Made by a program: the position numbers and the translations under genes. Under the pieces are notes generated by a model, which worked only from the letters and a program-made list of their open reading frames with translations, was not told the origin of the DNA and did not search any database. Below, one piece after another: positions 2 to 21,338 of a stretch of 27,047 nt of DNA. The DNA is from a virus. Location of the stretch: positions 6,699-33,745 of the IMG/VR virus record IMGVR_UViG_3300030060_008123, one strand, 5' to 3'. Numbering within the stretch: position 1 is the first letter of the stretch; every line of letters starts with the position of its first letter.

Positions 2-181
2 GGAGATGAATATTCATATCATAATTTTAATGGAGGTCAATGGTTAGATTATTCTGGCGGTTTGATTTTTGGTTACTGGTTTAATAAGAATTTAGGTGCC
101 TTTATAGAAGGTAAGTATAATAAATACTGGAATAGAGAATGGCATAATTTTTCATTCGGTATTAACTATAAAATATTTTAA
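2..181 (+). CDS. Outer-membrane beta-barrel protein, C-terminal end (5'-partial)
   Basis: An open frame enters from the left edge and ends with TAA at 179-181, giving 59 residues. The visible part alternates polar and hydrophobic/aromatic residues in short strands separated by Gly/Asn turns (for example GGLIFGYWF, LGAFIEGKYN, NFSFGINYKIF). It ends in a terminal Phe after an alternating strand, which is the usual C-terminal signal of outer-membrane barrels recognised by the BAM complex. This suggests the last strands of a small OmpA- or OmpW-like barrel inserted in the host outer membrane. The start and total length lie outside the window. It sits 5 nt before the next gene, so it probably belongs to the same transcript as the exported proteins that follow. 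The barrel call is from pattern only; a beta-rich virion protein is the alternative. Confidence 0.55.
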   Translation, partial: GDEYSYHNFNGGQWLDYSGGLIFGYWFNKNLGAFIEGKYNKYWNREWHNFSFGINYKIF

Positions 182-827: not shown

Positions 828-3800
828 ATGAAAAAGTTATTATTATTATTGGCGTTAACGCCAATGTTGTTATTATCCCAAGGTATACAACTAGATATTT
901 TTACTTGGGTAAATGTAGAATTTCAGTTTGATGATTATGCAGAAGAAGTCTCTTGGTCATTATCAAATAATGATAGTACAATAGTAATTTATCCCTATGG
1001 AAGTTACGAATCTGAACAACCAAATGCCTTTCATTTAGTAGATTCACTAGAACCTGGTGATTATACATTTGAATTATTAGATTCTTTTGGTGATGGTTTA
1101 TCATGGCCTAATGATGGTTATTGTTTAGTATCAAATGCTTGTCAGGATACTTTATTTTTTGCTCAAGGAGATTATGGTATAGGTTTAATTGAATCACTTA
1201 CTATAGCACCCTGTGCTCCTCCAACACCCGCAGTTGTTGATTGTATGGATGAAAATGCAATTAATTATAATCCTGATGCGGATGTAAACGATTTAATGTT
1301 ATGTGAATACCCTCCTTGTGAATCAATCGATAATATTTATGTAGAACAAACATGTGATGGAGGTTCTGCAATTCTTTATTATAATTGGGATACTTCAATT
1401 AACCCAAATTGTAATATAGTTCAAATAACCTATGGTAGTGAAAATACTAATGCATATACCTTTGATGTTAATATAGATAATGGAATATGGGGTGTTTATG
1501 CAGGTAATGGTCAAATGCCACCTAATTGGGAAGATGAATTTTATGCTCAATTTACTACAGCAGACAGTTTAGTATCAGATACTATATTTTTTACACCTTA
1601 CCCATGTACACAAGGTTGTACAGATTCAAACGCTCCAAATTATAATCCATGGGCAAACGTTGATGATGGATCTTGTGGAGGTCAAGCATGTGATATAGGG
1701 TATACTCCATTAACTATAGAAATCACTTTAGATAATTGGCCAAGTGAAACAGGTTGGTCATTTGTTAGTGGTGATGGCTCTACAGAAATTTCAGACGGAA
1801 CATACACTTTTCAAGATGTAGGTCAAACTTACACATATAATGTTTGTGCAATGGAAAGTGGATTTGAATTTATTATATCAGACACATATGGTGATGGTTT
1901 AGCAGGTTCTACTTCAGGAGGAACATTAGATGGAGATGTCCTTATTACAGGATGTAATGGTGATACAATAACCTCTTTATCATCTGGAACTTGGATAAAT
2001 GCAGATCAAGAAAATGTAAGTGTCGGTTTTGGTAATGTAGCTTATTCAGGTTGGCAAGAAGTTCCTACATGTGGAGGTCCAGAAGAAATATTGGGTTGTT
2101 TAGATAGTGATTATCAAGAATTTAATCCTTTTGCAAATATAGATGATGGTTCTTGTTTAAATGAACATGTATTTGGTTGTATAGATGAAAATGCATTTAA
2201 TTATAACCCTGATGCAACACAAATGGAAATATATCCTACATGTAATTATGAATTATGGATAGGAGACGCAGGTGCTGATGGTTGGGGTAATTCATTTTTA
2301 GGAGTTGTTCAAGGAAATAACCAATGGTCATTTACAATGGGTCCAGGAGAGTATGAACAAATATTTCCTATATGGTTAGAAACAGATAAGCCTGTAAAAA
2401 TATTTTATTTTGAAATAGGTGGAGCACAAACCCCACCAGAAGAAGTAGAATTCCAAACACTACATAATTCATTCAAACTAACAGATCAAAATGGTGTTGT
2501 ATTAATACATGAAGGATGGAATCCTTTTGCAAATAATGGTCAAGGTGCACTTCAACCTTTTGCACCTCCTTTTTATCAAACTTATGAAGCAATGCCTTTT
2601 TGTGGTACTTTATGTATTCCAACAATAGAAGGTTGTTTAGATTCAACTGCTTTAAATTATAACGAAGAAGCAAATACAGACGATGGTTCATGTATTGAAA
2701 TTATACCTGGTTGTACTCAAGAAATTGCATTTAACTATGATGAAAATGCTAATTTTGATGATGGTTCATGTGTAGCAGAAATAGTAGGATGTATGGATTC
2801 AACAGCATGGAATTATAATTCAGAAGCAAATGTAGGAGATGATTCATGTTTATATTTTGGATGTACAGATTCAGAAGCAACTAACTATAATGAAGGCGCA
2901 AATGTAGATAATGGTTCATGTCTATATCCAGGTTGTACTGATCCTTCAGCATTTAACTTTAATTCAGAAGCTAATATAGATGATGGTAGTTGTATATTAC
3001 CTATATATGGATGTACTGATCCAAATGCATTTAATTATGATGCAACAGCTAATACAGATAATAATTCATGTATACCTGTAATTGAAGGTTGTACTAATAT
3101 ATTTGCTTTTAATTATGATGCATTTGCAAATACAGATAATGGTAGTTGTATATTAACAGTTTATGGTTGTACAGACTCAACAGCACTTAATTATGATTCA
3201 GATGCTAATGTTGATAATGGTTCATGTATTGAAATAGTAGAAGGTTGTACTGATCCTATAGCTTTAAATTATAACGAATTAGCTAATGTTGATGATTTTA
3301 GTTGTATTGACCCTGTTTATGGTTGTACTGATTCAACAGCATTTAATTATAATGAATTAGCTAATGTTGATAATAATTCATGTATACCTGTAGTTGAAGG
3401 TTGTACAGATCCAACAGCTTTTAACTACAATGCAGACGCAAATACAGAAGATTTTTCATGTATAGAAGTTATATATGGGTGTACAGATGAAAATGCATTT
3501 AACTATGATGAACTAGCTAACACAGATAATGGGACTTGTATTGATATATTAACAGGTTGTACTGATGTTAACGCTGATAATTATGATGCAAATGTTAATA
3601 CAGATGATGGTTCATGTGAATATGATGCAGGATGTAGTGGAGGACCAGGAGTTCCATATTGGTTACCTAATGAATGTTTTGAATGGGTAATATCAATTGA
3701 CACTGAATGTTGTACAGGTGATTGGAATTCTTATTGTATTGAATTATATAATTATTGTGAATTTGGATGGCCTATTGATTTAGCAGAATTCAATGGAGAA

Positions 3801-4004
3801 TTATTAATATACCCTAATCCTGTAAGTGATATACTTAATATAACACAAGAAATTGACATAAAAGTATATGATATGGTAGGTAATTTAATAATTTTTAAAG
3901 AAAAAACAACACAAATAGATATGACTAATTTACCTAGTGGTATTTATAATTTAAATATAAATCATAATAATAAAATAATAAATAATAGAATTATAAAACA
4001 ATAA
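828..4004 (+). CDS. T9SS-exported multimodular surface protein with 17 GCTD...C modules
   Basis: This 1058-aa protein has a Leu-rich signal peptide (cleavage probably LLS|Q, near residue 17). Three beta-rich domains carry a GDG/ADG-Trp-type motif: SFGDGLSW near 86-93, TYGDGLAG near 353-360, and GADGWGNS near 482-489. Single GCxD...C modules separate them (about 138-160, 263-283, 423-443, 450-472). A tandem array of 13 more occupies 602-930. Next comes a Cys-rich stretch (about 935-977) with the ECCTGDWNSYC pattern, seen in many secreted proteins as DxxCCxxxWDxxC. The last ~68 residues are a typical type-A T9SS sorting domain: YPNPVSD, KVYDMVGN, LPSGIYNL and a Lys-rich end. Known biology: such domains direct export through the Bacteroidota type IX system, with removal and attachment to surface lipopolysaccharide or release. 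Acidic DDGSC-like ends suggest calcium binding (inference). The exact biological role is unknown; adhesion, surface masking or exclusion of other phages are options. Confidence 0.88.
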   Translation: MKKLLLLLALTPMLLLSQGIQLDIFTWVNVEFQFDDYAEEVSWSLSNNDSTIVIYPYGSYESEQPNAFHLVDSLEPGDYTFELLDSFGDGLSWPNDGYCLVSNACQDTLFFAQGDYGIGLIESLTIAPCAPPTPAVVDCMDENAINYNPDADVNDLMLCEYPPCESIDNIYVEQTCDGGSAILYYNWDTSINPNCNIVQITYGSENTNAYTFDVNIDNGIWGVYAGNGQMPPNWEDEFYAQFTTADSLVSDTIFFTPYPCTQGCTDSNAPNYNPWANVDDGSCGGQACDIGYTPLTIEITLDNWPSETGWSFVSGDGSTEISDGTYTFQDVGQTYTYNVCAMESGFEFIISDTYGDGLAGSTSGGTLDGDVLITGCNGDTITSLSSGTWINADQENVSVGFGNVAYSGWQEVPTCGGPEEILGCLDSDYQEFNPFANIDDGSCLNEHVFGCIDENAFNYNPDATQMEIYPTCNYELWIGDAGADGWGNSFLGVVQGNNQWSFTMGPGEYEQIFPIWLETDKPVKIFYFEIGGAQTPPEEVEFQTLHNSFKLTDQNGVVLIHEGWNPFANNGQGALQPFAPPFYQTYEAMPFCGTLCIPTIEGCLDSTALNYNEEANTDDGSCIEIIPGCTQEIAFNYDENANFDDGSCVAEIVGCMDSTAWNYNSEANVGDDSCLYFGCTDSEATNYNEGANVDNGSCLYPGCTDPSAFNFNSEANIDDGSCILPIYGCTDPNAFNYDATANTDNNSCIPVIEGCTNIFAFNYDAFANTDNGSCILTVYGCTDSTALNYDSDANVDNGSCIEIVEGCTDPIALNYNELANVDDFSCIDPVYGCTDSTAFNYNELANVDNNSCIPVVEGCTDPTAFNYNADANTEDFSCIEVIYGCTDENAFNYDELANTDNGTCIDILTGCTDVNADNYDANVNTDDGSCEYDAGCSGGPGVPYWLPNECFEWVISIDTECCTGDWNSYCIELYNYCEFGWPIDLAEFNGELLIYPNPVSDILNITQEIDIKVYDMVGNLIIFKEKTTQIDMTNLPSGIYNLNINHNNKIINNRIIKQ
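2631..3617 (+). repeat. In-frame tandem array of 13 GCTD...C protein modules
   Basis: Within the T9SS cargo gene, 13 consecutive units of about 72-78 bases encode 24-26-residue modules of the form GCTDxxAxNYxxxANxDDGSC plus a 3-5 residue linker. Every unit keeps both cysteines and the NY/NF pair; the acidic segment before the last Cys varies (DDGS, DNNS, DNGS, DDFS). Codons differ between copies, so the array is diverged rather than recently amplified. Four further single copies lie upstream in the same gene. The two conserved cysteines probably form an intramodule disulfide, in keeping with export. Confidence 0.9.
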
Positions 4005-5125: not shown

Positions 5126-5416
5126 ATGAATTTAAAAAAATTAAAAAATATCATCAGAGAAACTATAGAAGAACAAAAGATGCGTTCTGGAGGGATTGGA
5201 AACACTGTTAGTGCAAAAGGCTGTTGTAAAGAATTACATATATTACAACGACTTATTACACTTAAACAAGAAGAAATACAAGAATTAAATAATAGTCAGT
5301 CTTGGTTTGATATGTTTTTCGGGGATACTCAACTGATGGCAGCACAGAGTAGTCTACAGGCTATGACATCAGCTTACACGCAAATGCAGGCAACAGGTTG
5401 TTGTAAAGGTATGTAG
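5126..5416 (+). CDS. Small helical protein with paired GCCK motifs
   Basis: This 96-aa protein starts with an amphipathic basic/acidic helix (MNLKKLKNIIRETIEEQ) like those on the products of 5629 and 13573. It then has a GCCKE motif near residues 32-36, a helical middle ending in a Ser/Ala/Met/Gln-rich part, and a second GCCKGM at the extreme C-terminus. Two Cys-Cys pairs at the ends of a helical segment could bind metal or form a disulfide, but no known family comes to mind. It begins only 4 nt after the preceding stop, with A-rich sequence before the ATG. The preceding and following genes are also of unknown function, so context does not resolve its role. Confidence 0.65.
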   Translation: MNLKKLKNIIRETIEEQKMRSGGIGNTVSAKGCCKELHILQRLITLKQEEIQELNNSQSWFDMFFGDTQLMAAQSSLQAMTSAYTQMQATGCCKGM

Positions 5417-5628: not shown

Positions 5629-6024
5629 ATGAATTTAGAAGAATTAAAAAATCTTGTTGCTGAAGAGTATAATAAATACATGGCAGAACAAGAAGATGAT
5701 AAAGAAAAAAAAGATAATGCTAAAGGAGATGATGAAGGTAAGCCTAAAAAAGCTACTGCTCCTAAAGTAAAAGCGGGATCTAAAGATTTAGACATATCAG
5801 GTGATGATGATCCTGAAAAAGCTTTACGTGACATATATAATATGTTAAAAGATTTTTTTGAAGTAGATGATAAAGGAGATAAAAAAGATGGAGAAATGGG
5901 AGATGCAGAAAAAGGTGCTCCAGATGCTCCTAAACCTTCTCCAGGTATGGACGCTCCAAAACCACCTATGGAAATGGATATGCTTCAAGAACGCTTTAAA
6001 AAACTTGCAAATATTATAAAATAG
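5629..6024 (+). CDS. Acidic, mostly disordered phage protein with leader helix
   Basis: The 131-aa product begins with an amphipathic helix (MNLEELKNLVAEEYNKYM). A long Asp/Glu/Lys/Gly stretch follows with a helical patch (DPEKALRDIYNMLKDFF, about residues 63-79), then a Pro/Met-rich linker and a terminal helix (MLQERFKKLANIIK). The composition resembles internal head or core proteins of T4-like phages (for example gp67, gp68 or the IP proteins), which carry an N-terminal capsid-targeting helix. This likeness is by composition and architecture only. It is 5 nt upstream of the 494-aa gene and probably cotranscribed with it. Confidence 0.7.
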   Translation: MNLEELKNLVAEEYNKYMAEQEDDKEKKDNAKGDDEGKPKKATAPKVKAGSKDLDISGDDDPEKALRDIYNMLKDFFEVDDKGDKKDGEMGDAEKGAPDAPKPSPGMDAPKPPMEMDMLQERFKKLANIIK

Positions 6025-6028
6025 TCTT

Positions 6029-7513
6029 ATGACTCTCGACGAGTTATTATTAGAATGGTCTTATAGGTCAGAAAAGGGTTATCCTGAATTAGATAACCCT
6101 TCTGATATCTCTATACTTAAACAAATCTTAGAAAAACTAAATTTACCCTCTCATACTATTATAGAAAATTTAAAAGAAGGAAAATTACAAAATATAGACT
6201 TTAGAAATAGTGTAGAAAGAAAAGATGATATTCTTCGTTCTGATATATTTTTAAATAAAATTAATAAAGGTGAAGAATTTGAACTAACAGATGGTTCCAA
6301 AATTATTATAGATCCAGATCAATCTGCTGAATCTATTCAAAAACTCCAAAACCAAGATTTTAAAAATCTAAATTTTACAGATACTTCAGGTAACACATAT
6401 AGCCTATCTAAATTTGAAAAAACAGCAGAATTTGGTGGAGGTTCAGGAGCAGGAGGTGGATCTAAAGATACAAGAATAATGGAATCTGCTCATTGTTATG
6501 CTTTAGCAATAGCATATTATATTAAACAGGGTCCTATTAATGAAGATGATTTATTAGGTGCTACTAGTTCAGAACAATTTGCACAAGCTCAACAATATGT
6601 AGATGTTGATGCTGAACTTGATGAAATAGAAGAATTTTTTGATAGAAAAGGAGATTGGTATCTTTCTATAGTTAAAGCAACAAATAAAATATATGATTTA
6701 TTCCCTAATAAAGGATATAAAATCCATAGAAATTCTGATATAATAGATACATTATATAAAATTTATAATAAATCATTTGAAAAAGATGATGAACAATCAA
6801 TCCAATACCCAAAAATGAAAGATGATAAATGGAATCCTGCTGATATTTGGTTAATAAATGATAATGTTAATCCCGAAGAATTTTCTGGTAATTTAGCAGT
6901 TTTAAACGGACAATTAGCAGACTGGTATGAAGATGGAGATATGATAGGTATATCTTTAAAAAAGATAGGTAAAAAAGATAATGCAGCAGAAAAAATATAT
7001 AATGATCCTGATATAGATTCAGAAAAATATAAATATGAAGGATATAGAAGTTTACCTACTAACGCTAATTCTGAAATAATATTTACAGGAGGAAAAGCAA
7101 CAGCTAGAATGTTTAGTACTACTAAAAACTTTAACGTAGAAATTTCAGGTAAAGCAGCTCAAGGAGGAAAAGCCGGAATGGAAGCTATAAATACAATTTT
7201 AGAAAGAAATGGATTAAGTGTTTTGCCTCCTAACCAAGAAGTAATAGATGCTTTTAATAATAACGATGAAAATTATTATAATAAACTATATTATTTATAT
7301 GATAGGTTTGTAGAAACTATATCAAAAGAAGATTTTGAACAAAAATATACTTCAGCTAAACCAGGATGGATAATAGGTAAATTTTATAGTTTAGAACTTA
7401 TAGAAAAACTTGAAGACAACCAACCACAACCAACAAACGAAATATTAGATGATATTTTAAGATATGCATCTTCATCTACTAATGATTCATCTAAATTTAT
7501 AAAAATATCATAA
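6029..7513 (+). CDS. Phage protein with possible PD-(D/E)xK-like nuclease motif pattern
   Basis: The 494-aa product has an N-terminal motif (LLLEWSYRSEKGYPEL, about residues 6-21) that I recall from marine T4-like phages. A Gly/Ser-rich linker (about 135-145, GGGSGAGGGS) joins it to the second half. That half contains E152 in ESAHCYALA, then KWNPADIWLI (about 267-276) and IGISLKK (about 306-312). An acidic residue, then PxD, then a strand with SLK is the spacing seen in some PD-(D/E)xK-fold nucleases, with D272 and K311 or K312 as candidate metal or catalytic residues. The usual D/E two residues before Lys is replaced by Ser, as it is in some members. It could be a DNA-processing enzyme or a virion protein with a decayed fold. 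I see no signal peptide or membrane span. Nuclease function is an inference. Confidence 0.7.
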   Translation: MTLDELLLEWSYRSEKGYPELDNPSDISILKQILEKLNLPSHTIIENLKEGKLQNIDFRNSVERKDDILRSDIFLNKINKGEEFELTDGSKIIIDPDQSAESIQKLQNQDFKNLNFTDTSGNTYSLSKFEKTAEFGGGSGAGGGSKDTRIMESAHCYALAIAYYIKQGPINEDDLLGATSSEQFAQAQQYVDVDAELDEIEEFFDRKGDWYLSIVKATNKIYDLFPNKGYKIHRNSDIIDTLYKIYNKSFEKDDEQSIQYPKMKDDKWNPADIWLINDNVNPEEFSGNLAVLNGQLADWYEDGDMIGISLKKIGKKDNAAEKIYNDPDIDSEKYKYEGYRSLPTNANSEIIFTGGKATARMFSTTKNFNVEISGKAAQGGKAGMEAINTILERNGLSVLPPNQEVIDAFNNNDENYYNKLYYLYDRFVETISKEDFEQKYTSAKPGWIIGKFYSLELIEKLEDNQPQPTNEILDDILRYASSSTNDSSKFIKIS

Positions 7514-9632: not shown

Positions 9633-10010
9633 ATGGATTCACTAAACCAAATAATATTCGATGATAAATCTTTTTCGGATTTACTAAAAGAAATACATAA
9701 AAATCAAAGTAAAAAATCAAAACAATTAGCTGCTTTAATAGCTGAATTACGTCCTCTTATTACTAGTTTAGGAGATGCTACAGTAGTAGTACCCTTAATT
9801 AAAGAATATATGGAAATCAGTGTTAAAAATGATGACCAACTAATAAAAATGGCAGCTATAGTACAACGTTTATCTACGGGCAATGCTAATACAGGTGATG
9901 GAGGTATGTTAACTGAAGAAGAAATGCAACAACTACAAAATGTAGCTGAAGAAATATCAAAAACAGTAGAAAAACCAAAACAATTAAACCAACCAGATAT
10001 AGATGATTAA
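9633..10010 (+). CDS. Helical protein leading the baseplate operon, unknown
   Basis: The 125-aa product is helical, with an acidic N-terminus, a central pair of helices (LAALIAELRPLITSLGDA and VPLIKEYMEISVKNDDQLIKM, about residues 32-80) and a polar, disordered acidic tail. It has no signal or transmembrane span. Similar small proteins directly ahead of the gp5-like gene occur, to my recollection, in uncultivated marine T4-like phages. Its last 8 bases overlap the next start (ATG at 10003), so translational coupling with the hub-peptidase gene is likely. It may be a baseplate assembly factor or hub component; the sequence gives no direct proof. Confidence 0.7.
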   Translation: MDSLNQIIFDDKSFSDLLKEIHKNQSKKSKQLAALIAELRPLITSLGDATVVVPLIKEYMEISVKNDDQLIKMAAIVQRLSTGNANTGDGGMLTEEEMQQLQNVAEEISKTVEKPKQLNQPDIDD

Positions 10011-11979
10011 TTTTTTTCCTGCACAAGTTAAAGATATTATTACTTCACCTAGGCATGAACTTGCAAAAGCTATAGGAAGTTATTCTGCTGTAGGTACTAT
10101 AAGATATGAAGTAGTTGGAGAATCATCTGCTAATAATATTCTTTTAGCTAAACCCGCTAATCCTAGAATAACAGATCTTCCTGTAATAGATGAATATGTT
10201 TTAATATTTAAAACAGTTTCAAAAACAAGTAACTTTATTTCAACAAATGAAGATACTTATTATTTACCTATGCAAGTAAATGTTTGGGGGAATCAAAATC
10301 ATAATAGTAACCCTGGAGAACCTGAAGATTTTTATGATGCTATGCCTCCTACACAAGAATATTTAGAGGCAGCTGGAGGAAACCCACATAATCCTTCAGA
10401 AAATTTTGATGAACAATTAACTATATATCAAGGAGAATATTTTAAAGAAAAAAAGATAAAACAACTATTACCTAAAGAAGGTGATTATATTATAGAAGGA
10501 AGATTCGGACAAAGTATAAGATTTGGATCTACAGCAAACCAAAATACCTTAATGGCAGATGAAAGAGATAATTGGAGTGATGGAGGGATGCCTGGAGATC
10601 CTATTACTATTATAAGTAATGGATTACCTAATGATCCAAATATATATAAACAAAATCTTATAGAAGATGATGATATAGAAAAACCATGGATACATACTAT
10701 GGAAGATGTCAATAATGATCCTTCTAGTATATATTTAACATCAAACCAAAGAATAAATAATTTTAGACCTGCAGGAGTAGGACATCCTTCTATTAATGCC
10801 TTTAAACCAGAAGAAAAAACAGAAACAGAGGAACAAACTTTAGGTACAAATTACATAACTAAAACAGATTTAAATAATGATCCTTTACCTGAAGTAAAAG
10901 AAGAAGATGTAGTAACAACTCTTCCTTCTGAAACAGATTTAACACAAGTTAAGACAGATAATTCTGAATTAGCAAATATAAGTGGTGAAGAAATGACTCC
11001 TTTTTATATAATAGAAGGATCTACAGATAATAATAACATATTTATAAATGATAATATAAATGAACTTATAACAAATAATCCATCTACAATACCTCTTGAA
11101 GCTGTAGAAGGTGAAGAACTAGATACTTTAGGTAGTTGGAATACAAATATAGGATCTTATTTTAAATTAGCCCATTTAATAGCTACACCTAACTCACAAA
11201 ATTATAATATATATACTTCATCATATAGTAACCCTAATCACCCAGATGCAGATTTTGTAAGAAAAAATACAGAAGTAGGATTTTATATTGATGTAAATAA
11301 TGTAGGTAGCAAAAAAATAATAACAAAAGAATATATAGGTCCTACTCCTGGAGAAGAATCATCATACAGAATATTAGAAGATGAACCTAAAATAAACCCA
11401 ATAGATTCTGTTGAACCTTATACTTATCTTAAAACAGATGTTGAATTACTTAGAGAAGCAGAATCTTATATATTTGGTAATTATAGCAATTATGGTATAG
11501 ATAATTACCCCGGAAAAGATATGCATATATCTTATCAAAGTGTTATAACTAATTTAACTAAATTATTTGAAAATTGTATTGATCCTATTATAAATGATTT
11601 TGGAAACATAAAAATAGTCTCAGCATATAGAAGTAGAAATCTTAATAGAACTTTACCTAAAAACCCATCAAATAGTGAACATATTTTTGGACATGCTGTT
11701 GATATAAAAACTTTTGGTCCAGGAAATAATGCAGGATTATTTAATTTTATTTATACAAATTTAGAATTTAAAAATTTAATGTGGGCTTATCCTGAAAGAG
11801 AAGAAGGCTCTTGGATACATCTTTCTTTTATTGAAGGAAAAAATTACAAAAAAACAACATTACTTTCAGAAAATAATTCATTTCATAAACAATATAACGG
11901 AACAAGAAGAGGACCAAATAACTTTTATCAAGATAATATAACTGAAGCTCTTACTCCAATTAATTTCCAAAACTATTAA
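10003..11979 (+). CDS. gp5-like baseplate hub protein with M15-type peptidase domain
   Basis: In the 658-aa product, the N-terminal part (about residues 28-100) has strands of an OB-like fold (GTIRYEVVG, PVIDEYVLIF, PMQVNVWGN), followed by EGRFGQSIRFGS (165-176) and EDVNNDPSSIYLTSNQRI (234-251), blocks found in gp5-like hub proteins of marine T4-like phages. After an acidic linker, residues about 475-620 form a D-Ala-D-Ala-carboxypeptidase-type domain: SAYRS (540-544), SEHIFGHAVD (558-567) and WIHLS (604-608). His560, Asp567 and His606 would bind zinc. Thus the enzyme that thins peptidoglycan during injection probably cuts peptide cross-links, whereas T4 gp5 (575 aa) carries a lysozyme domain. 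It overlaps the preceding gene and lies 2 nt upstream of a spike-like protein, as expected for a hub/spike pair. Confidence 0.8.
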   Translation: MINFFPAQVKDIITSPRHELAKAIGSYSAVGTIRYEVVGESSANNILLAKPANPRITDLPVIDEYVLIFKTVSKTSNFISTNEDTYYLPMQVNVWGNQNHNSNPGEPEDFYDAMPPTQEYLEAAGGNPHNPSENFDEQLTIYQGEYFKEKKIKQLLPKEGDYIIEGRFGQSIRFGSTANQNTLMADERDNWSDGGMPGDPITIISNGLPNDPNIYKQNLIEDDDIEKPWIHTMEDVNNDPSSIYLTSNQRINNFRPAGVGHPSINAFKPEEKTETEEQTLGTNYITKTDLNNDPLPEVKEEDVVTTLPSETDLTQVKTDNSELANISGEEMTPFYIIEGSTDNNNIFINDNINELITNNPSTIPLEAVEGEELDTLGSWNTNIGSYFKLAHLIATPNSQNYNIYTSSYSNPNHPDADFVRKNTEVGFYIDVNNVGSKKIITKEYIGPTPGEESSYRILEDEPKINPIDSVEPYTYLKTDVELLREAESYIFGNYSNYGIDNYPGKDMHISYQSVITNLTKLFENCIDPIINDFGNIKIVSAYRSRNLNRTLPKNPSNSEHIFGHAVDIKTFGPGNNAGLFNFIYTNLEFKNLMWAYPEREEGSWIHLSFIEGKNYKKTTLLSENNSFHKQYNGTRRGPNNFYQDNITEALTPINFQNY

Positions 11980-13572: not shown

Positions 13573-14028
13573 ATGAAAGCAAAAACGTTTGAAAACCTAA
13601 TTAGAAAAGTAGTTAGAGAAGAAATTGATTATGCATTACGCAGAGAAATAAAATCACTTAAAGAAGATTTACGTGATGAAATTAAACCTACTATTATAGA
13701 AACTAAATCACCTGTTATTACAAATAATTTAAAAGAAAAAATTATGGGAACTCCAACACAACAAACCCCTAAAAAATCTTTTAAACCAAAACAATTTACA
13801 AGTAATAATACTTTAAATAGTTTACTAAATGAAACGGCAATGGGAGATACTAGTTTAGGCCAATCTCAATCACCTGTTTCTATGGAAAGAAACTTTAATA
13901 TGACAGAAGCCCCAATAAGTACTATAGGTAATATGCCTATAGAATCTGCTCCTAAAGAGGTAGCAGATGCTGTAACTAGAGATTATAGTAGTTTAATGAA
14001 AGCAATAGATAAAAAAAGAAATAGATAA
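13573..14028 (+). CDS. Unknown protein with amphipathic leader helix, next to gp25
   Basis: The 151-aa product begins with a strongly charged amphipathic helix (KTFENLIRKVVREEIDYALR, about residues 4-23) continuing as coiled coil to about residue 45. The rest is polar, low-complexity and rich in Thr, Asn, Pro and Ser, ending in a basic helix (MKAIDKKRNR). The leader resembles those of the 5126 and 5629 products. The gene's stop codon overlaps the gp25 start by one base (TAATG), so translation of the two is likely coupled. It may be a chaperone or minor virion component for the wedge; no catalytic features are seen. Confidence 0.65.
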   Translation: MKAKTFENLIRKVVREEIDYALRREIKSLKEDLRDEIKPTIIETKSPVITNNLKEKIMGTPTQQTPKKSFKPKQFTSNNTLNSLLNETAMGDTSLGQSQSPVSMERNFNMTEAPISTIGNMPIESAPKEVADAVTRDYSSLMKAIDKKRNR

Positions 14029-14441
14029 TGGCTTTTATATCTAATATAAGTAGAAAACATCCTATTGACCTTAATAAAAATATGAGGGTAGGGATAGCTT
14101 TCCCTTTAGATGAAAGAAACGTAAATACAGGTACTTTTACTTTAAAAGAACAAGCTAAGTCAAATCTTATAAATGTTTTACTAACAGAACCTGGAGAAAG
14201 AGTATATCAACCTAATTTTGGAGTAGGTTTAAAAAAACTTTTATTTGAAAGTAAAATAAATACTCAATTATTAAATAGAAAAATTGATAAACAAATAAGA
14301 ATGTTTGTTCCTCAAATACAATTGCAAAATACTTCTACAGATTTTATAGAAAATGAAAATTTACTTTATATAAGAATAACATATAAATTTTTATTAGATG
14401 GGTCTCCAGATGCAATACAATTAAATTTTAATTCATATTAA
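14028..14441 (+). CDS. 25: Baseplate wedge protein gp25
   Basis: At 137 aa it is close to T4 gp25 (132 aa). It has the family's layout: a short N-terminal strand with DLNKNMRVGIAFPLDE (residues 14-29), a helix leading into the conserved LLTEPGERVYQPNFGVGL (51-68, with the Glu54-Pro55-Gly56 core), and a C-terminal beta hairpin (LLYIRITYKFLL). gp25 sits at the inner ring of the baseplate and helps trigger sheath polymerisation; related proteins occur in P2 (W), R-type pyocins and type VI secretion systems. Phage rather than T6SS origin is supported by the neighbouring gp55 and gp6 homologues. It lies 5 nt upstream of the gp6 gene. Confidence 0.92.
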   Translation: MAFISNISRKHPIDLNKNMRVGIAFPLDERNVNTGTFTLKEQAKSNLINVLLTEPGERVYQPNFGVGLKKLLFESKINTQLLNRKIDKQIRMFVPQIQLQNTSTDFIENENLLYIRITYKFLLDGSPDAIQLNFNSY

Positions 14442-14446
14442 ATAAA

Positions 14447-16342
14447 ATGGCATACAATAAAACATCAAACATACCTGATAACAGAAATGTTAAGTATTTA
14501 AGTAAAGATTTTGAATCTTTTAGAAGTAATTTACAAGAATTTGCAGAAATATATTTTCCTAATACTTATAATGATTTTTCAACAAGTAATCCAGCTACAA
14601 TGTTTATTGAAATGGCTTCTTACGTTGGTGATATATTATCTTTTTATACTGATACTCAAATTCAAGAAACTTTTTTATCTTTAGCTCAAGAAAATGAAAA
14701 TATATATAATATGGCTTATGCTATGGGGTATAAACCTTCATTATCAGAAGCTTCTAGTGTAGGTTTAAGTTTATACCAATTAGTTCCTTCTAAACCATCT
14801 TCTAACTATGATCCTGACTTAGACTATGCTTTAACTATAGGCCAAGGATCCACATTTACAACAGCAAATGGAACTTCTTTTTATACAACACAAGAATGTA
14901 ATTTTGGTGTTTCTTCTTCATTAAATGATGATCCAGATGCAGAAATATTCCAATATGATGGTAGTGGAAATCCTGAATATTGGTTACTAACTAAAAATAA
15001 TATACCTGCTATTTCTGCAGAACAAAAAACCCAAACATTTCAAATAGGTGCCCCTGAAAGATTTAAAACATTAACTTTATTTGATAATAACATACTTTCA
15101 GTAGTATCTTGTACAGACTCAGATGGTAATCAATGGCATGAGGTAGATTATTTAGCACAAGATACTAAGTTTTTTACTAGAGCAAATACAGCAGCTGTAG
15201 ATCCTACAATGGCTCAATATAGAGATAATGTTACTAGTATTATAGACCTTATTACTGTACCAAAAAGATTTGTAACTAGAGCTAAAGAAAATAATACATT
15301 AGAAATCCAATTTGGTGCTGGTACTTCTGCAGAAGCTGATGTAGATATAATTCCTAATCCTGATAATATAGGTTTAGGAATTAAAGATGGAAGAAGTAAA
15401 TTAGATCAAGCATATGATCCTTCAAATTTTTTATATAGTAAAGGGTATGGTGAATCACCTTCAAATACAACTTTAACTATAACTTATTTAGTAGGTGGAG
15501 GTATAGAAAGTAATGTAAGTTCTAATACTATAACTCAAAAAGGAATACTTGATGTAAGAAACAAAGCTAATCTACAAAATTCTTTACTAACTTTTGTTAA
15601 AAATTCTATTGAATCAACAAACCCAAACCCTGCTGCAGGAGGGGGTGATGGAGATACTCCTCGAGATGTTAGAGAAAAAGCTATGGCTCATTTTGCTGCT
15701 CAACAAAGAGCTGTAACTAAAGAAGATTATACATTAAGAGCACTTTCTATGCCTGCTGAATTTGGAAGGATAGCTAAAGCATACATAACTCAAGATGATC
15801 AACTAAGTCCTAATACAAATGAATCTAATCGTATTCCTAATCCTTTAGCTTTAAATTTATATACTTTGGGACTTGATAATCAAGGATCTTTAATTCCTTT
15901 AAATTTTGCTACAAAACAAAATTTACAAACATATCTAGAACAATACAGAATGTTAACAGATGCTATTAACATTAAAGATGCTTATGTTATAAACATAAGA
16001 GTATTATTTACTATAACAACTTATAAAAATTCAAATAACCAACAAGTTTTATTAAGTTGTATTGATTTAATTTCAAGATTTTTTAACCCTCGGTTTTGGC
16101 AAATCAATCAACCTATTGTTTTATCTGAACTAGAAAATCTTATAGGTGTTGTAAGTGGAGTAAAAACAGTAGAAAATATTGAGATTTTAAATATTGCTGG
16201 AGAAAATATAGGTTACTCTAAATATGTATATGATATATTATCAGCAACTAGAAATGGAGTAATTTATCCTTCATTAGACCCAAGTATATTTGAACTTAAG
16301 TTCCCTCAAGAAGATATTGAAGGATCTGTAACAACTTATTAA
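14447..16342 (+). CDS. 6: Baseplate wedge protein gp6 (baseplate J-like)
   Basis: The 631-aa product compares with 660 aa for T4 gp6. Its N-terminus has the characteristic KYLSKDFESFRSNL (17-30), then NPATMFIEMASYVGDILSFY and TFLSLAQENENIYNMAYAMGY, seen in gp6 and J-like proteins of contractile tails. The central region holds beta-rich segments and RDVREKAMAHFAAQQRAVT followed by DYTLRALSM, the family's conserved middle block. The C-terminal third (VINIRVLFTI, QINQPIVLSELENLIGVVSGV) is the typical end, in which a dimerisation domain links wedges. gp6 forms the iris-like inner ring that opens on contraction. It is adjacent to gp25, as in most T4-like phages. Confidence 0.9.
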   Translation: MAYNKTSNIPDNRNVKYLSKDFESFRSNLQEFAEIYFPNTYNDFSTSNPATMFIEMASYVGDILSFYTDTQIQETFLSLAQENENIYNMAYAMGYKPSLSEASSVGLSLYQLVPSKPSSNYDPDLDYALTIGQGSTFTTANGTSFYTTQECNFGVSSSLNDDPDAEIFQYDGSGNPEYWLLTKNNIPAISAEQKTQTFQIGAPERFKTLTLFDNNILSVVSCTDSDGNQWHEVDYLAQDTKFFTRANTAAVDPTMAQYRDNVTSIIDLITVPKRFVTRAKENNTLEIQFGAGTSAEADVDIIPNPDNIGLGIKDGRSKLDQAYDPSNFLYSKGYGESPSNTTLTITYLVGGGIESNVSSNTITQKGILDVRNKANLQNSLLTFVKNSIESTNPNPAAGGGDGDTPRDVREKAMAHFAAQQRAVTKEDYTLRALSMPAEFGRIAKAYITQDDQLSPNTNESNRIPNPLALNLYTLGLDNQGSLIPLNFATKQNLQTYLEQYRMLTDAINIKDAYVINIRVLFTITTYKNSNNQQVLLSCIDLISRFFNPRFWQINQPIVLSELENLIGVVSGVKTVENIEILNIAGENIGYSKYVYDILSATRNGVIYPSLDPSIFELKFPQEDIEGSVTTY

Positions 16343-16344
16343 TT

Positions 16345-17958
16345 ATGGCTTATTATTATTTATTTCCAGAAATAGACTCAACTATATATAGTCATCCAGA
16401 CCGAAAAACTTTAAACACTGGTGGAGATGAAATCCTTGAAATTGTAAAAGAAAAACACACTGACCAAAAATATTATCCTACTAGGATTTTAGTTAAATTT
16501 AAAAATGAAGAAATTAAGGATGTAATTGAAAATACAATAGGATCTTCTACTTTTAATAATGGTACATCTAAAGTTAATTTAAGGTTATATGAAACCCAAC
16601 AAAAAAATCTTACTACAACTCTTAATTTAAATGTATTTGCTGTATCTCAATCATGGTCTGAAGGTAAAGGTAGATATTCTAATTTACCCTCTTCCTCTAA
16701 TGGTGTTTCTTGGTTATATAGAGATAATGATATTACAAAAACACAATGGCCTACAGGATCAACACCTGGATTGTCTATAGCTTCAAGTTCTTTTACAATA
16801 TTAGAAATACCTTCCTCCTCAGTACATAAATTAAGAATAGGAAATATTAATTATATACCTGTTATATCTGGTTCTAGTTTTTTTAGTGGAAGTGATAGTA
16901 CAGAAGTTTATGTAGATATAAGTGGGTCCGGTACTGTTTCCGCAATGGGTAATTTTAATAAAAGTTTAGTTAAAGCTATCAATACTTACTCAACAGATGT
17001 ATCAGCTAGTTTTAATTCAGAAGCATGGGGTTCCAATATAGGAGCAATTTATTTATCAGCATCAGTAGCAGGTACTAAAGGTAACATAGAAGTAGTTACT
17101 AGTTCTCTTCAGACAGATCAAGCAGGAAAACACCAAGGAGTCTTTAGAGCGAATTCATCTGAATTAGGATATAGTCTTCAAGGAGGAACAGATGGTACAG
17201 CAGTAACTTTTTACCCAGGAACCACAGGATCTTTAGACAAAGATTTACTTACCGCGGGAGGTGGTGCTTGGTGGACAGGTAGTAATTATACTTCAACTCA
17301 ACAATTTTTAAACGCTACTTCATTTGATACTAATTTTGAAGTAATTAATATAGTTCAAAGATGGAGTAGTAGTTTATTTGCAAGCCAACAATATAATCAA
17401 GGTAACTTACCTTCAGGAATAGAAAATCATGGTTTTTTAATTAAACAACCTGAATCAGTAGAATTAGCATCAAGTAGTAGTTTTGGAGAAATGCAGTTTT
17501 TTTCTGTTGATACTCATACTATTTATCCACCAAGATTATGTTTTAAATGGGATGATAGTACTCATGAATTTACTTCTCAAGCTAAAACTAGTGGGGAATT
17601 AAATGTGTCATTATATAAAAATAAAAAAGAATATAATCAAAATGATGTAGCTACATTTCGAGTTCATGTAAGAGATAAATATCCAACAAGAACATTTGTT
17701 ACTTCATCTAATTTTTTAAACCCAGGTTACTTTACAGCAAATTCTTTTTATAGTATTAGAGATGCTTATTCAGAAGAAGAAGTTATACCATTTGATGATA
17801 ATTTTACTAAAATGAGTGCAGATGCAGAAGGTATGTATTTTAAAATCTATATGAATGGTTTACAACCAGAAAGATATTATCGTTTATTATTTAAACATAT
17901 GAACGATGATGGAACTATGATATATGATAATAATTATATTTTTAAAGTTATTAGATAA
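16345..17958 (+). CDS. Beta-rich virion structural protein with an inserted domain
   Basis: The 537-aa protein starts with MAYYYLFPEIDSTIYSHPDR, a start I recall from marine T4-like phages. Its first part (YYPTRILVKF, LNVFAVSQSWSEGKGRYSN, GVSWLYRDN) and a later part (IVQRWSSSLFASQQYN, GFLIKQPESV, PRLCFKWDDS) together resemble one jelly-roll-like DNRLRE-type domain. Between them lies a Ser/Gly-rich insert with LVKAINTYS, IYLSASVAGTKGNIEVVTSS, a small module found in virion adhesins and shared with the large protein at 21375-25755. The C-terminal part has Ig-like strands (FRVHVRDKYP, YYRLLFKHM). A wedge-arm or tail-fibre-attachment role is plausible; the exact T4 counterpart is unclear. It overlaps the next gene by one base. 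Confidence 0.72.
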   Translation: MAYYYLFPEIDSTIYSHPDRKTLNTGGDEILEIVKEKHTDQKYYPTRILVKFKNEEIKDVIENTIGSSTFNNGTSKVNLRLYETQQKNLTTTLNLNVFAVSQSWSEGKGRYSNLPSSSNGVSWLYRDNDITKTQWPTGSTPGLSIASSSFTILEIPSSSVHKLRIGNINYIPVISGSSFFSGSDSTEVYVDISGSGTVSAMGNFNKSLVKAINTYSTDVSASFNSEAWGSNIGAIYLSASVAGTKGNIEVVTSSLQTDQAGKHQGVFRANSSELGYSLQGGTDGTAVTFYPGTTGSLDKDLLTAGGGAWWTGSNYTSTQQFLNATSFDTNFEVINIVQRWSSSLFASQQYNQGNLPSGIENHGFLIKQPESVELASSSSFGEMQFFSVDTHTIYPPRLCFKWDDSTHEFTSQAKTSGELNVSLYKNKKEYNQNDVATFRVHVRDKYPTRTFVTSSNFLNPGYFTANSFYSIRDAYSEEEVIPFDDNFTKMSADAEGMYFKIYMNGLQPERYYRLLFKHMNDDGTMIYDNNYIFKVIR

Positions 17959-20486
17959 TGTTTGTTGATGAAAATGATCTTTATAATGAAAATCTCTCAT
18001 CTTATGAACCTGCTAGGGATACAGATGCAGAATTTGGTGATTCTATGGAAGGAGAACTTCCCCAAACAGTATCTAATCCCTCAATAGATTTAGAGAAAGA
18101 AATAATAAGTAATAGGTTAGCTAAAGAAATTTTAGATCGAGATTTTAATGAATTAATAGATTTAGGAGTAGATATAGATGTAAAAAAGTTATTTGATTTA
18201 TACAATACTTTATTTTATCAAATAAAAAAAAAAGATGCTCCTAATAATAATTCTCATCATGATTTAATCCATGAAAGTCTCCATTATTTTAATAATTTTG
18301 TAGATTATTGTAAACCTACAGGATATGGAGATACTCAAGTTAATTGTGATAATGAAATTGAAAGATTATTTGGAATAATAGATGAAATTAATACTCTTTC
18401 ATATGAAAAAGAAAATAAAATAGACGAACAAAATTTTATGTATCCTAATGGTACTTTATTAAGAGGAGAACACTTAGCAGAAAATGGATTGCCTGTATGG
18501 GTTATGGTTCAAGGAAAAAAAAGAGAAATAAAAAATACAGAAATATATCAAGTAATAAAAAGGGCTTTAGGACATGCTTCTAATACCCCAGATAGTGAAA
18601 TATTACATAAAGTAACTAATGATGAATTAAGTGACATTGTAGAAGGATTATCTATAGAAAATGCATTTGATGTTTATAATGTAGACAATACAGGAAGTCA
18701 AACATTAGCAGATCCTACAGTAACTATAAGTGAAACTTTTAATTATAGAGAATCAATGTTTGTTTGTCTATGTGATGCTGTTGATGATCCTGACGAAGCA
18801 CTAGATTTATATAAAATATTTGGAGGGGGTCAACCTAGTAATGGAACGGATAATACAGGAAAATGTACTATTATTTATTATAATTTAGATTCACAAAAAC
18901 AAACTTTAGTTTTAAATGCAGGAGAAAGTACCCTTTCTTATTTTCCTTCTACAGGAGGTAAAATTCAACATAGAGTTGATTTATTTGATGGTGTAGAAAG
19001 TGTTCCTGCTGTTTTTAGTGATCCTACTACTCCTTGTACTGATAATGATGGGAATAACTATAATTTAGACCCTTATGGAAATGTAGTTAACGGAGTATAT
19101 CTTAATGGTTTTATAAGAGAAATTAGATTTTCTGAAAATGGTAATAATTTAACTACACCCCCTGATGGAACTGGTTATCTTTTTGATGATGATGGTTTTG
19201 GAAATATTACATCAGGGCATACCATAGAAAAATTAAAAGATGACTATGGGTCTGACGAAGAAGGTTTTAATGTGTTTTATTATAATGTTCCCTTTGTTGC
19301 AAGATTACCTAAATTTTCAAATTATAATCATAATACTAATAACGGGCATCTTAATGGAGGAAGACTTGGAGTACAACTTGTTACTCCAAAAATAAGAATG
19401 TTTACTAGTGGTGATGGGGGATTATTTGCTCAATTTCCACCTACACATAGTCCAGACACTGAAGATAATAAAAGTTCTTACCCTAATGGGTCTACTTATG
19501 GTTATGCTCATGGTTTTAGTCCTGAAGCAGGAATAGGAAATGATTTTTATGCTATAGAAAATATAAAAATTCGAGATCCTGAATTTTATAATACTGTTTT
19601 AAATAATCCTGATTCAAGAATTTACAACCCTAATGAAGATGCTTCTAAATGTCTTTTTTTAGGTCCTAAAAATAATGGTCATGGTCTTTCTTGGACTCGT
19701 ACTTACGGAAATAATGATATAAGATCAGCCTTTAATTCTAGTATATCTTTTCAACAAATTGCTTCTGCTTATAGTACTTTAGCAGGTGCTGCAGCTGAAT
19801 TTCAAAGTTATTTAGTTACGGGTAATGGATATTCTGCCTATAATAATGCTGGATCTTTACCTGTAGTTTTTAATTTAGATGTTGGGTATTATGGGTATAA
19901 CCATGGGTTAGGATCTTTTGATGTGAAAGCATGGGCATGTTATGGTGCTCCTATTTTTGAAGTACCTGTTGGGGGAGGTAAATTATGGTATGTAATAGGA
20001 CCTATGTTGTGGCATGTAGATGGAAATAGTTATGTTGAAAGGATGGAAAAAGCAGATATGGGTAGTTCTTATACAGAGTCAGGTGGTAATTGGAGATATG
20101 GTAAAGCAGGAAATGATCATTGGAGACTTATATATCCTATAGCAACTACAAGCTGGACTTCTTTTCAAGGTGATAATGATGATGGAGGTCATATTCATAA
20201 ATTTTGTGATGGTTCTTTTGCAGGTGGTATAGCATTAAGATATCCTGAAAGACATCCTTTAATGCAAGGGACTTTTAACACTATTACTCAAATAATGGCA
20301 GGAACCCCTGTTACTAATACTAATCTTTCTGGAGGTACACCAAGAGTAAAATGTGTATTTCCTGGTTTAGACCATGTTTTTTACCAAAATTACATAAACA
20401 CAGGTGGTCCATATGGACATACAACTCCTTGGAATGGAACCGGATTAGAAAGTAAGTTTTCATTTACAGGACATTATCATTTTTAA
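17958..20486 (+). CDS. Large baseplate/adhesin-like structural protein with HxH end
   Basis: The 842-aa product has an acidic N-terminus, then a domain (about 70-200) with KKLFDLYNTLFYQI, MYPNGTLLR and WVMVQGKKREIKNTEIY that reappears in the next gene. A short PCTDNDGNNYN segment (about 359-370) looks like a remnant of the GCTD...C module. The C-terminal half is Gly-, Asn-, Tyr- and His-rich and beta-like, with HGFSPEAG, GHGLSW, GGHIHKF (His745, His747) and a terminal GHYHF (His839, His841). HxH pairs bind metal ions along the axis of trimeric phage fibres such as T4 gp37, so a receptor-contacting trimer is possible. The domain order suggests a baseplate anchor in front and an exposed tip at the end. 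It starts on the last base of the preceding stop. Confidence 0.7.
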   Translation: MFVDENDLYNENLSSYEPARDTDAEFGDSMEGELPQTVSNPSIDLEKEIISNRLAKEILDRDFNELIDLGVDIDVKKLFDLYNTLFYQIKKKDAPNNNSHHDLIHESLHYFNNFVDYCKPTGYGDTQVNCDNEIERLFGIIDEINTLSYEKENKIDEQNFMYPNGTLLRGEHLAENGLPVWVMVQGKKREIKNTEIYQVIKRALGHASNTPDSEILHKVTNDELSDIVEGLSIENAFDVYNVDNTGSQTLADPTVTISETFNYRESMFVCLCDAVDDPDEALDLYKIFGGGQPSNGTDNTGKCTIIYYNLDSQKQTLVLNAGESTLSYFPSTGGKIQHRVDLFDGVESVPAVFSDPTTPCTDNDGNNYNLDPYGNVVNGVYLNGFIREIRFSENGNNLTTPPDGTGYLFDDDGFGNITSGHTIEKLKDDYGSDEEGFNVFYYNVPFVARLPKFSNYNHNTNNGHLNGGRLGVQLVTPKIRMFTSGDGGLFAQFPPTHSPDTEDNKSSYPNGSTYGYAHGFSPEAGIGNDFYAIENIKIRDPEFYNTVLNNPDSRIYNPNEDASKCLFLGPKNNGHGLSWTRTYGNNDIRSAFNSSISFQQIASAYSTLAGAAAEFQSYLVTGNGYSAYNNAGSLPVVFNLDVGYYGYNHGLGSFDVKAWACYGAPIFEVPVGGGKLWYVIGPMLWHVDGNSYVERMEKADMGSSYTESGGNWRYGKAGNDHWRLIYPIATTSWTSFQGDNDDGGHIHKFCDGSFAGGIALRYPERHPLMQGTFNTITQIMAGTPVTNTNLSGGTPRVKCVFPGLDHVFYQNYINTGGPYGHTTPWNGTGLESKFSFTGHYHF

Positions 20487-20489
20487 ACT

Positions 20490-21338
20490 ATGGCAACACA
20501 AGAACAAAAAACAATATTAGAAGGTTGTACAGACCCAAAAGCTTCAAATTATATAGGAGCTACTTTTATGGAAGATCCTACTATTAAAGTTATAGATAAT
20601 CTTAGTTGTGAATATTACCAACAGATTAAATTAAATAAAAGTATATATGGTCATAAAGGATTCGAAGAAAATACAGATATAAATTTTACAGAACTAAATC
20701 TTCGAAATTTAGAAATAGAAGATTTTTTTTCATTATATAGAAAAATTTTTTACAATATACCTAGAAGAGGAATATTTTCCCATAAATCAATAATAGATAG
20801 AAGTACAGAATATATACCCGGATATACACACCCTAAAACAATACAGATAGAAGATTTATTTTTAGAAATCCAAGCAGCTTTACAAAGATTTTTTTCAATA
20901 GAACAAAAACATTCTATAATAAAAAATAATACTATATTAAGAGCCACAAATAATGTAAGTTCAACCTTTAATGCTAATTCAGGTGAAGCTTTATATCTTA
21001 TACAGTCTTTTAAAAAAAGACTTATAACTGGAACAAATGTAGTTTTTACTAATCTTGGATCTACAACAGCTGAAAAACGAGGACCAGCACATATTTTAAG
21101 CCAAATTAAACAAACATTAAATTTAGCAGAGGATGTAGATGTTACTGTTCCTTTACCTTCTGAAGTTTTAAGTAATATACCTGATGGTCCTGAAATAACA
21201 AAAATAGCAGATATTGATGTAGATTTATTAGATATAAATACTATAAATATTAATTTAGCTTTAGAAGAAATAATTGAACATTATGGGGTAGGAAATACTT
21301 CTTCCGGTCTTAATAATGCTCTTTCAGGAAATTATTAA
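20490..21338 (+). CDS. Baseplate-operon protein with an N-terminal GCTD...C module
   Basis: The 282-aa product starts with a GCTD-type module (residues about 11-40: EGCTDPKASNY ... DNLSCEYY), carrying both cysteines and a roughly 9-residue insertion relative to the T9SS protein's copies. It then has a domain (about 73-187) with DFFSLYRKIFYNIPRR, SHKSIIDRS, NNTILR and LIQSFKKRLITG, clearly parallel to residues about 70-200 of the preceding 842-aa protein. The C-terminal part is acidic and helical. A pair of Cys in a non-secreted virion protein is unusual, but particle proteins meet oxidising conditions after lysis. Spacing is 3 nt after the preceding gene. A likely role is a peripheral baseplate or adapter protein; the function of the module is unknown. 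Confidence 0.72.
   Translation: MATQEQKTILEGCTDPKASNYIGATFMEDPTIKVIDNLSCEYYQQIKLNKSIYGHKGFEENTDINFTELNLRNLEIEDFFSLYRKIFYNIPRRGIFSHKSIIDRSTEYIPGYTHPKTIQIEDLFLEIQAALQRFFSIEQKHSIIKNNTILRATNNVSSTFNANSGEALYLIQSFKKRLITGTNVVFTNLGSTTAEKRGPAHILSQIKQTLNLAEDVDVTVPLPSEVLSNIPDGPEITKIADIDVDLLDINTININLALEEIIEHYGVGNTSSGLNNALSGNY
20523..20609 (+). repeat. Single GCTD...C module in a baseplate-operon gene
   Basis: The encoded segment GCTDPKASNYIGATF, a short insert, then DNLSC, matches the module that is repeated 17 times in the T9SS protein at 828-4004 (GCTDPxAxNYxxxAxxDxxSC). Conserved points are Gly-Cys-Thr-Asp-Pro, Ala, Asn-Tyr and the final Asp-x-x-Ser-Cys. It is the only full copy seen in the virion genes. 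Confidence 0.75.

Follow-up and report, generated by a model that had tools for sequence, protein, structure and literature searches.

Several described systems resemble parts of the locus analyzed here. Cryophage also encodes T9SS cargo with T9SS type A sorting domains, but the cargo proteins are an endoglucanase, a glycoside hydrolase, and a PA14 protein; in the part of the report available, no array of GCTD modules and no four-gene cassette is described, and a role of phage T9SS cargo in competition or superinfection exclusion is proposed (PMC7468147). A Gln following the signal-peptide cleavage site is given as the Q-rule of Bacteroidetes in the accessible part of another source (PMC5837995). 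The hinge of perforin-2 is referred to, likewise in the available part of the paper, as a truncated EGF-like domain (PMC6989145). Flavobacterium phage immuto gp161, annotated as hypothetical, resembles the protein encoded at 20490-21338 in its core and in its position after gp25/gp6-like genes, but is different in being 112 aa in length, with little beyond the core, no cysteine, and no GCTD module. A search of the open-access literature found no paper naming the GCTD module or the four-gene cassette described below.

The window, i.e. the whole stretch of DNA analyzed here (27,047 nucleotides), is part of an IMG/VR virus record of 33,745 bases (IMGVR_UViG_3300030060_008123, positions 6,699 to 33,745). 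The gp25-like gene (14028-14441) and the gp6-like gene (14447-16342) are located upstream of the 20490-21338 gene. The gp6-like protein is 44% identical to its counterpart in Flavobacterium phage immuto and approximately 60% identical to those of 80 marine viral contigs, and on the basis of these matches the source is considered to be a T4-like phage, the host of which is probably a marine Bacteroidota. Within the tail operon, the protein encoded at 10003-11979 carries a C-terminal M15-peptidase-like stretch (PF08291, E 3e-4, slightly below the curated cutoff). An N-terminal leader resembling M..LKNIIKE(Q/T) is common to the proteins encoded at 5126-5416, 5629-6024, and 13573-14028 of the window and at L002:409-729 and L361:6537-10470; some of these leader proteins also carry a C-terminal RFKKLA(G/N)I, and two of them in G016 bear GCTD modules. 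We take these leaders to be reminiscent of the capsid-targeting leaders of T4 internal proteins.

The GCTD module (consensus GCTDxxAxNYNxxANxDDGSC) is a Cys-capped unit of roughly 23 residues. Its richest occurrence in the window is a T9SS type A cargo protein of 1058 aa (828-4004, + strand), for which the first-pass annotation had reported 17 copies. A total of 17 modules were indeed counted (residues 138-932, 1239-3623), of which the last 13, from residue 602, are arranged in tandem (2631-3623) as repeats of 72/78 bases. From inspection of the sequence and a simple rule of hydrophobicity, the N-terminus, MKKLLLLLALTPMLLLSQG, was identified as a Sec signal peptide with Gln after the cleavage site, and the C-terminal sorting domain (residues 994-1055, 3807-3992) matches Por_Secre_tail (PF18962, E 1.7e-11) and TIGR04183 (E 1e-8). 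With these signals the protein would be displayed on the cell surface. No family in Pfam, NCBIfam, or PHROGs was matched by the array modules, and no cellular relative was found in the scan of cellular genome contigs with the whole protein. The protein is kept in 14 other viral contigs with a variable number of modules. The AlphaFold2 model is of low confidence (pLDDT 31).

The gene for this cargo is preceded on the same strand by three others. At the beginning of the window (2-181) lies the C-terminal part of an exported, outer-membrane-barrel-like protein of about 350 aa, for which profile matches were obtained in its own record (E 3e-140 and 2e-31); the gene begins upstream of the window (from position 5816 of L002), and a gap of 10 N immediately precedes the window start. 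Next comes a 94-aa protein (MAKELNED..., 187-471) with a single transmembrane (TM) segment and an apparent coiled coil, located just upstream of the gene for an exported thioredoxin-like protein (477-815). The assignment of signal peptides, TM segments, and coils is based on simple rules and inspection of the sequences. In the thioredoxin-like protein, FNAGWNSSN replaces the FWAxWCxxC site (NxxN); a profile made from 20 homologues (A4) hit thioredoxin chains in the PDB by hmmsearch (best E 4.5e-9), and in all 20 aligned copies the CxxC redox site is absent, both catalytic Cys being replaced by Asn.

Among 19 records with the array, the thioredoxin-like protein was present in all 19 and the barrel-like protein, with 53-88% identity to the reference copy, in 18. 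All 18 barrel-like proteins carry an [AGSC]Q site and many end in F, although the barrel character is judged from the sequence only; no significant match was detected against Pfam, PHROGs, or PDB. All 87 loci with the thioredoxin-like gene also have the coiled-coil gene in the vicinity, which in the records listed directly precedes the thioredoxin-like gene; 88 of 89 coiled-coil proteins contain a TM segment, the apparent coil being judged by eye. By scanning viral contigs, 544 relatives of the coiled-coil protein and at least 562 of the barrel protein were identified. Among the best 80 of the barrel relatives, both the GCTD array and the thioredoxin-like gene were present at every locus with 5.5 kb on both sides (38/38); for 39 well-flanked coiled-coil loci, arranged in three main gene orders, the corresponding counts were 39 for the thioredoxin-like gene and 38 each for the array and the barrel. 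The sets of related contigs behind these counts overlap and are not independent samples. No match to the barrel protein or to the coiled-coil protein was obtained in 50,697 phage records. With respect to cellular genomes, the search covered 296 genomes from the order to which a Flavobacteriales metagenome-assembled genome belongs; the barrel protein was detected in one of them and gave no match in the other 295. The single case is a contig of a Flavobacteriales metagenome-assembled genome (L513:6501-11192), in which the barrel, thioredoxin-like, and GCTD genes lie beside an amidase gene and replication-type genes; the contig, which holds the whole trio and looks viral by reading, is probably a binned phage contig, and a cellular origin of the barrel was rejected. 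We conclude that the real functional context of the exported protein is a conserved four-gene cassette, not previously described, whose members are predicted to sit in the inner membrane, in the periplasm, in the outer membrane, and on the cell surface, possibly as parts of a single complex.

A second occurrence of the module had been proposed for the beginning of the 282-aa protein encoded in the baseplate operon (20490-21338, + strand), which starts with MATQEQKTILE-GCTDPKASNY-IGATFMEDPTIKVI-DNLSCEY. The copy spans 20523-20615 and consists of GCTDPKASNY (20523-20552), a middle part longer by eight residues, and IDNLSCEY (20592-20615). When a profile of the 17 array copies was run against the 271 open reading frames of the window (30 aa or more), the only match outside the array protein was this protein (16.5 bits, E 9.2e-5), the next-best frame giving E 1.8, and thus the copy does score better than unrelated Cys-containing segments. 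An independent profile, A3, made of 41 modules from other viruses only, recognized the first half (module positions 1-10, at 20523-20552) with E 0.0022 and the second half (module positions 16-23, at 20592-20615) with E 6.1. Shuffling the protein sequence 20,000 times never yielded the score of the 17-copy profile (16.5 versus a maximum of 12.8), nor that of A3, the latter with a narrow margin (13.0 versus 12.8). The pattern GC[TMLIV][DN]xxAx[NE][YF] is expected about 7e-5 times among the proteins of the window; across 570,853 aa of open reading frames from 80 relatives and its own record, it was found only in this protein, one array homologue, and one paralogue. In agreement with the proposed Cys-bounded module, residues 13 and 40, which are the sole two cysteines in the protein, occupy module positions 2 and 21 and flank the segment.

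The baseplate copy is, however, degenerate: it scores 16.5 bits as against 34-47 for the array copies, its Tyr-to-Cys spacing is eight residues longer, and its middle and acidic end (IDNLSC) have diverged. It therefore belongs to the module family without closely duplicating any array unit. A recent transfer of the module from one of the two genes to the other was rejected on the basis of a codon comparison, in which the same-codon rate was 0.61 versus 0.68 expected. The two profiles, the shuffles, and the Cys register altogether confirm that the baseplate segment is a genuine, although degenerate, member of the GCTD family, as judged by sequence comparison.

A direct search of viral contigs and phage records with the 20490 protein gave no close relative. 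About 50 homologues, adjoining gp25/gp6-like genes in the relatives, were instead collected via the neighboring gp6-like gene, and share a conserved core (residues about 46-135, positions 20625-20894) with the motif K..YG..F.E..FF.lY..lFY.IP..G.SH. By this core domain and by its position beside gp25/gp6, the protein is a homologue of immuto gp161 and is assigned here as a putative virion (baseplate) protein, from operon position and homologues and not from proteomics. The leader ahead of the core is hypervariable in the alignment, ranging from four to 78 residues, and 32 of the 50 aligned sequences contain no cysteine at all. The N-terminal GCTD module is present, among the approximately 50 homologues, in the window protein only, while four others (L040, L065, L028, and L026) carry in the same N-terminal slot a different four-Cys module, CxxCxF..C..W....YVC..W (CxxCKF..C.NW....YVCNSW). 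This four-Cys module is, we presume, reminiscent of high-potential iron-sulfur proteins, but such an identity was unsupported by a PDB sequence search. The protein encoded just upstream (842 aa, 17958-20486, + strand) is a paralogue with, by reading, the same core (FNEL..KLFDLYNTLFYQI..SHHDLIHESLHY) and without a GCTD module, and the upstream paralogues of L081 (13050-14375) and L147 (277-1557) carry two GCTD modules at their end. These cases indicate repeated acquisition of small Cys modules by the gene pair, at one end or the other. The AlphaFold2 model of the baseplate protein has a pLDDT of 70, decreasing to about 45-55 (low confidence) in residues 1-45, which include the module; Foldseek with this model retrieved four proteins of uncultured viruses and no significant PDB match.

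GCTD modules are distributed more widely than these two proteins. The pattern scan of viral contigs gave at least 120 stretches with the module, and the module proteins listed from it fall into two groups, one of signal-bearing exported arrays and one of proteins that are not exported and contain a single module or several. The non-exported proteins tested, from G023, G027, G029, and G043, match virion structural protein families of PHROGs, and the GCTD protein of cyanophage S-CAM3 belongs to such a family as well (phrog_2155). In cyanophages S-CAM3 (gp232) and ACG-2014j (gp030), one or two GCTD modules are included within a structural protein, but this is of another protein family, the host is Synechococcus, and the cassette barrel protein is absent from the records. 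Among the matches listed from cellular genomes, most are from Bacteroidota and some from Marinimicrobia.

From the sharing of one module between a baseplate-operon protein and an exported protein of the same genome, the first-pass annotation had suggested a common partner of the two. The sharing itself was confirmed, but the partnership was not borne out by the comparison of relatives. Ten relatives combine the array with homologues of the baseplate protein, but no GCTD module is present in these homologues in any of the ten, including the nearest, G001, in which the array protein is 95% identical. Of the 19 array-bearing records, 12 encode no other GCTD protein and seven also encode a non-exported one, a fraction that is only rough since the records (44-127 kb) are all fragments and five were first chosen because they seemingly hold both kinds; the sample comprised array-bearing records only, and the co-occurrence is compatible with some link to the array. 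The lack of conserved pairing, the cyanophage virion modules without cassette barrel, the arrays standing alone, and the presence of an unrelated four-Cys module in the slot of four homologues favor module reuse over a dedicated partnership between virion and surface. We thus consider, with a probability of roughly 0.6, that the whole is best explained by a common extracellular building block having been used in more than one place. In the virus analyzed here, a T4-like phage with a presumed marine Bacteroidota host, the module would have been acquired as a decoration at the N-terminus of a structural protein. The 17-module array is most likely a stalk, closed by disulfides, that connects the N-terminal domains with the outer-membrane sorting end and for which a length varying between relatives is as expected, and the single copy of the baseplate operon most likely forms a small exposed spacer or knob. 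These roles are assigned by analogy, the AlphaFold2 models of both module regions being of low confidence, and the disulfide and the virion location are likewise inferred; virion proteins are made in the reducing cytoplasm, and the Cys pair of the baseplate copy may therefore not be bridged.

Several other explanations were weighed against the reuse of a building block. The two proteins could recognize a common ligand, either a glycan or an ion such as calcium held by the Asp/Asn-rich end, the baseplate copy serving for adsorption and the array as a decoy or a receptor mask against superinfection. Both proteins would face outside, both kinds occur in seven of the 19 records, Asp/Asn at module positions 4, 9, 11, 15, 17, and 18 are strongly conserved, and superinfection exclusion is suggested for phage T9SS cargo in the available part of the Cryophage report (PMC7468147). 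This explanation is nevertheless improbable, since the nearest relatives retain the array without the pair, the baseplate copy is degenerate in its middle and acidic end, cyanophages carry virion modules without the barrel protein, and no metal is mentioned at the perforin-2 hinge in the part of the paper available (PMC6989145). A decoy or exclusion role of the exported protein is possible, but none of the present results ties that protein to the baseplate module. Docking of the baseplate module on the virus's own surface protein, for instance for leaving or aggregating on infected cells or for trapping progeny, draws on the origin of both proteins from one genome and on the mutual association that tandem Cys modules might undergo; it is even harder to accept, given that the pairing is not conserved where the surface protein is 95% identical, that no sequence evidence of co-evolution was found, and that the codon comparison gave no recent exchange. 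The least plausible explanation of all appears to be that a leader of low complexity resembles the module by chance. The leader is indeed hypervariable, the match is split in two, and translation could begin past GCTDPKASNY, at a further ATG located at residue 27. The matches of two profiles (E 9e-5 and 0.0022), the 20,000 shuffles without success, and the register of both Cys stand against chance, and the ATG at 20490 lies only three bases past the stop codon of the upstream gene, in keeping with tight gene packing.

The exported GCTD protein could also belong to a system for lysis or outer-membrane opening, in which case the baseplate module is incidental; this is compatible with module reuse and is put forward here as a tentative and rather doubtful possibility, although a better one than the three above. 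One cassette member, the single-TM coiled-coil protein, is spanin-like in topology. Of 87 loci, 48 have small 2-TM genes, which resemble holins in topology only, at a distance of up to 8 kb, and 21 have M15 peptidases in this range; in L513, an amidase gene directly adjoins the cassette. The 2-TM and M15 neighbors are hints of lysis; against it, the match to spanins is not significant (Rz-like PHROG, E 0.09), no lysis gene was found adjoining the cassette in the window, and the strong conservation of the barrel would be unusual for a lysis accessory. Superinfection exclusion is as plausible as lysis for the cassette, which may act in surface remodeling, exclusion, or lysis. As a broader proposal, with chances that we regard as even, the four proteins constitute an envelope-spanning phage system (inner-membrane coiled-coil protein, periplasmic redox-dead NxxN thioredoxin-like protein, outer-membrane barrel, and T9SS-exported array), present in several hundred or more contigs of uncultivated marine viruses and acting in outer-membrane opening, superinfection exclusion, or surface remodeling, with its module being common with structural proteins in a minority of viruses.

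The exported protein thus led to a near-inseparable four-gene set of marine viruses, which we rate as more important than the module link; if the set acts as one machine, it would represent a widespread means by which viruses that infect marine Bacteroidota modify or break through the envelope of their host. The set resembles spanin systems in that its 94-aa protein has, as an i-spanin, a single TM segment and, after it, what appears to be a coiled coil, but is different from spanins with respect to the family match, which is not significant, and to the partners, which are here barrel-like, thioredoxin-like, and T9SS cargo proteins. As to the module, its only significant match among solved structures, by end-to-end alignment of the module profile, is the EGF-like hinge of perforin-2 (macrophage-expressed gene 1; PDB 6u2j, 6u23, and 6sb1; E 1.5e-6). 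The likeness lies in the sequence profile, by which alone the phage copies were compared, and the hinge differs in being a single copy located between the MACPF and P2 domains of a metazoan pore former. The GCTD module links, in this way, phage structural proteins, surface proteins of Bacteroidota, and the hinge of an animal pore former.
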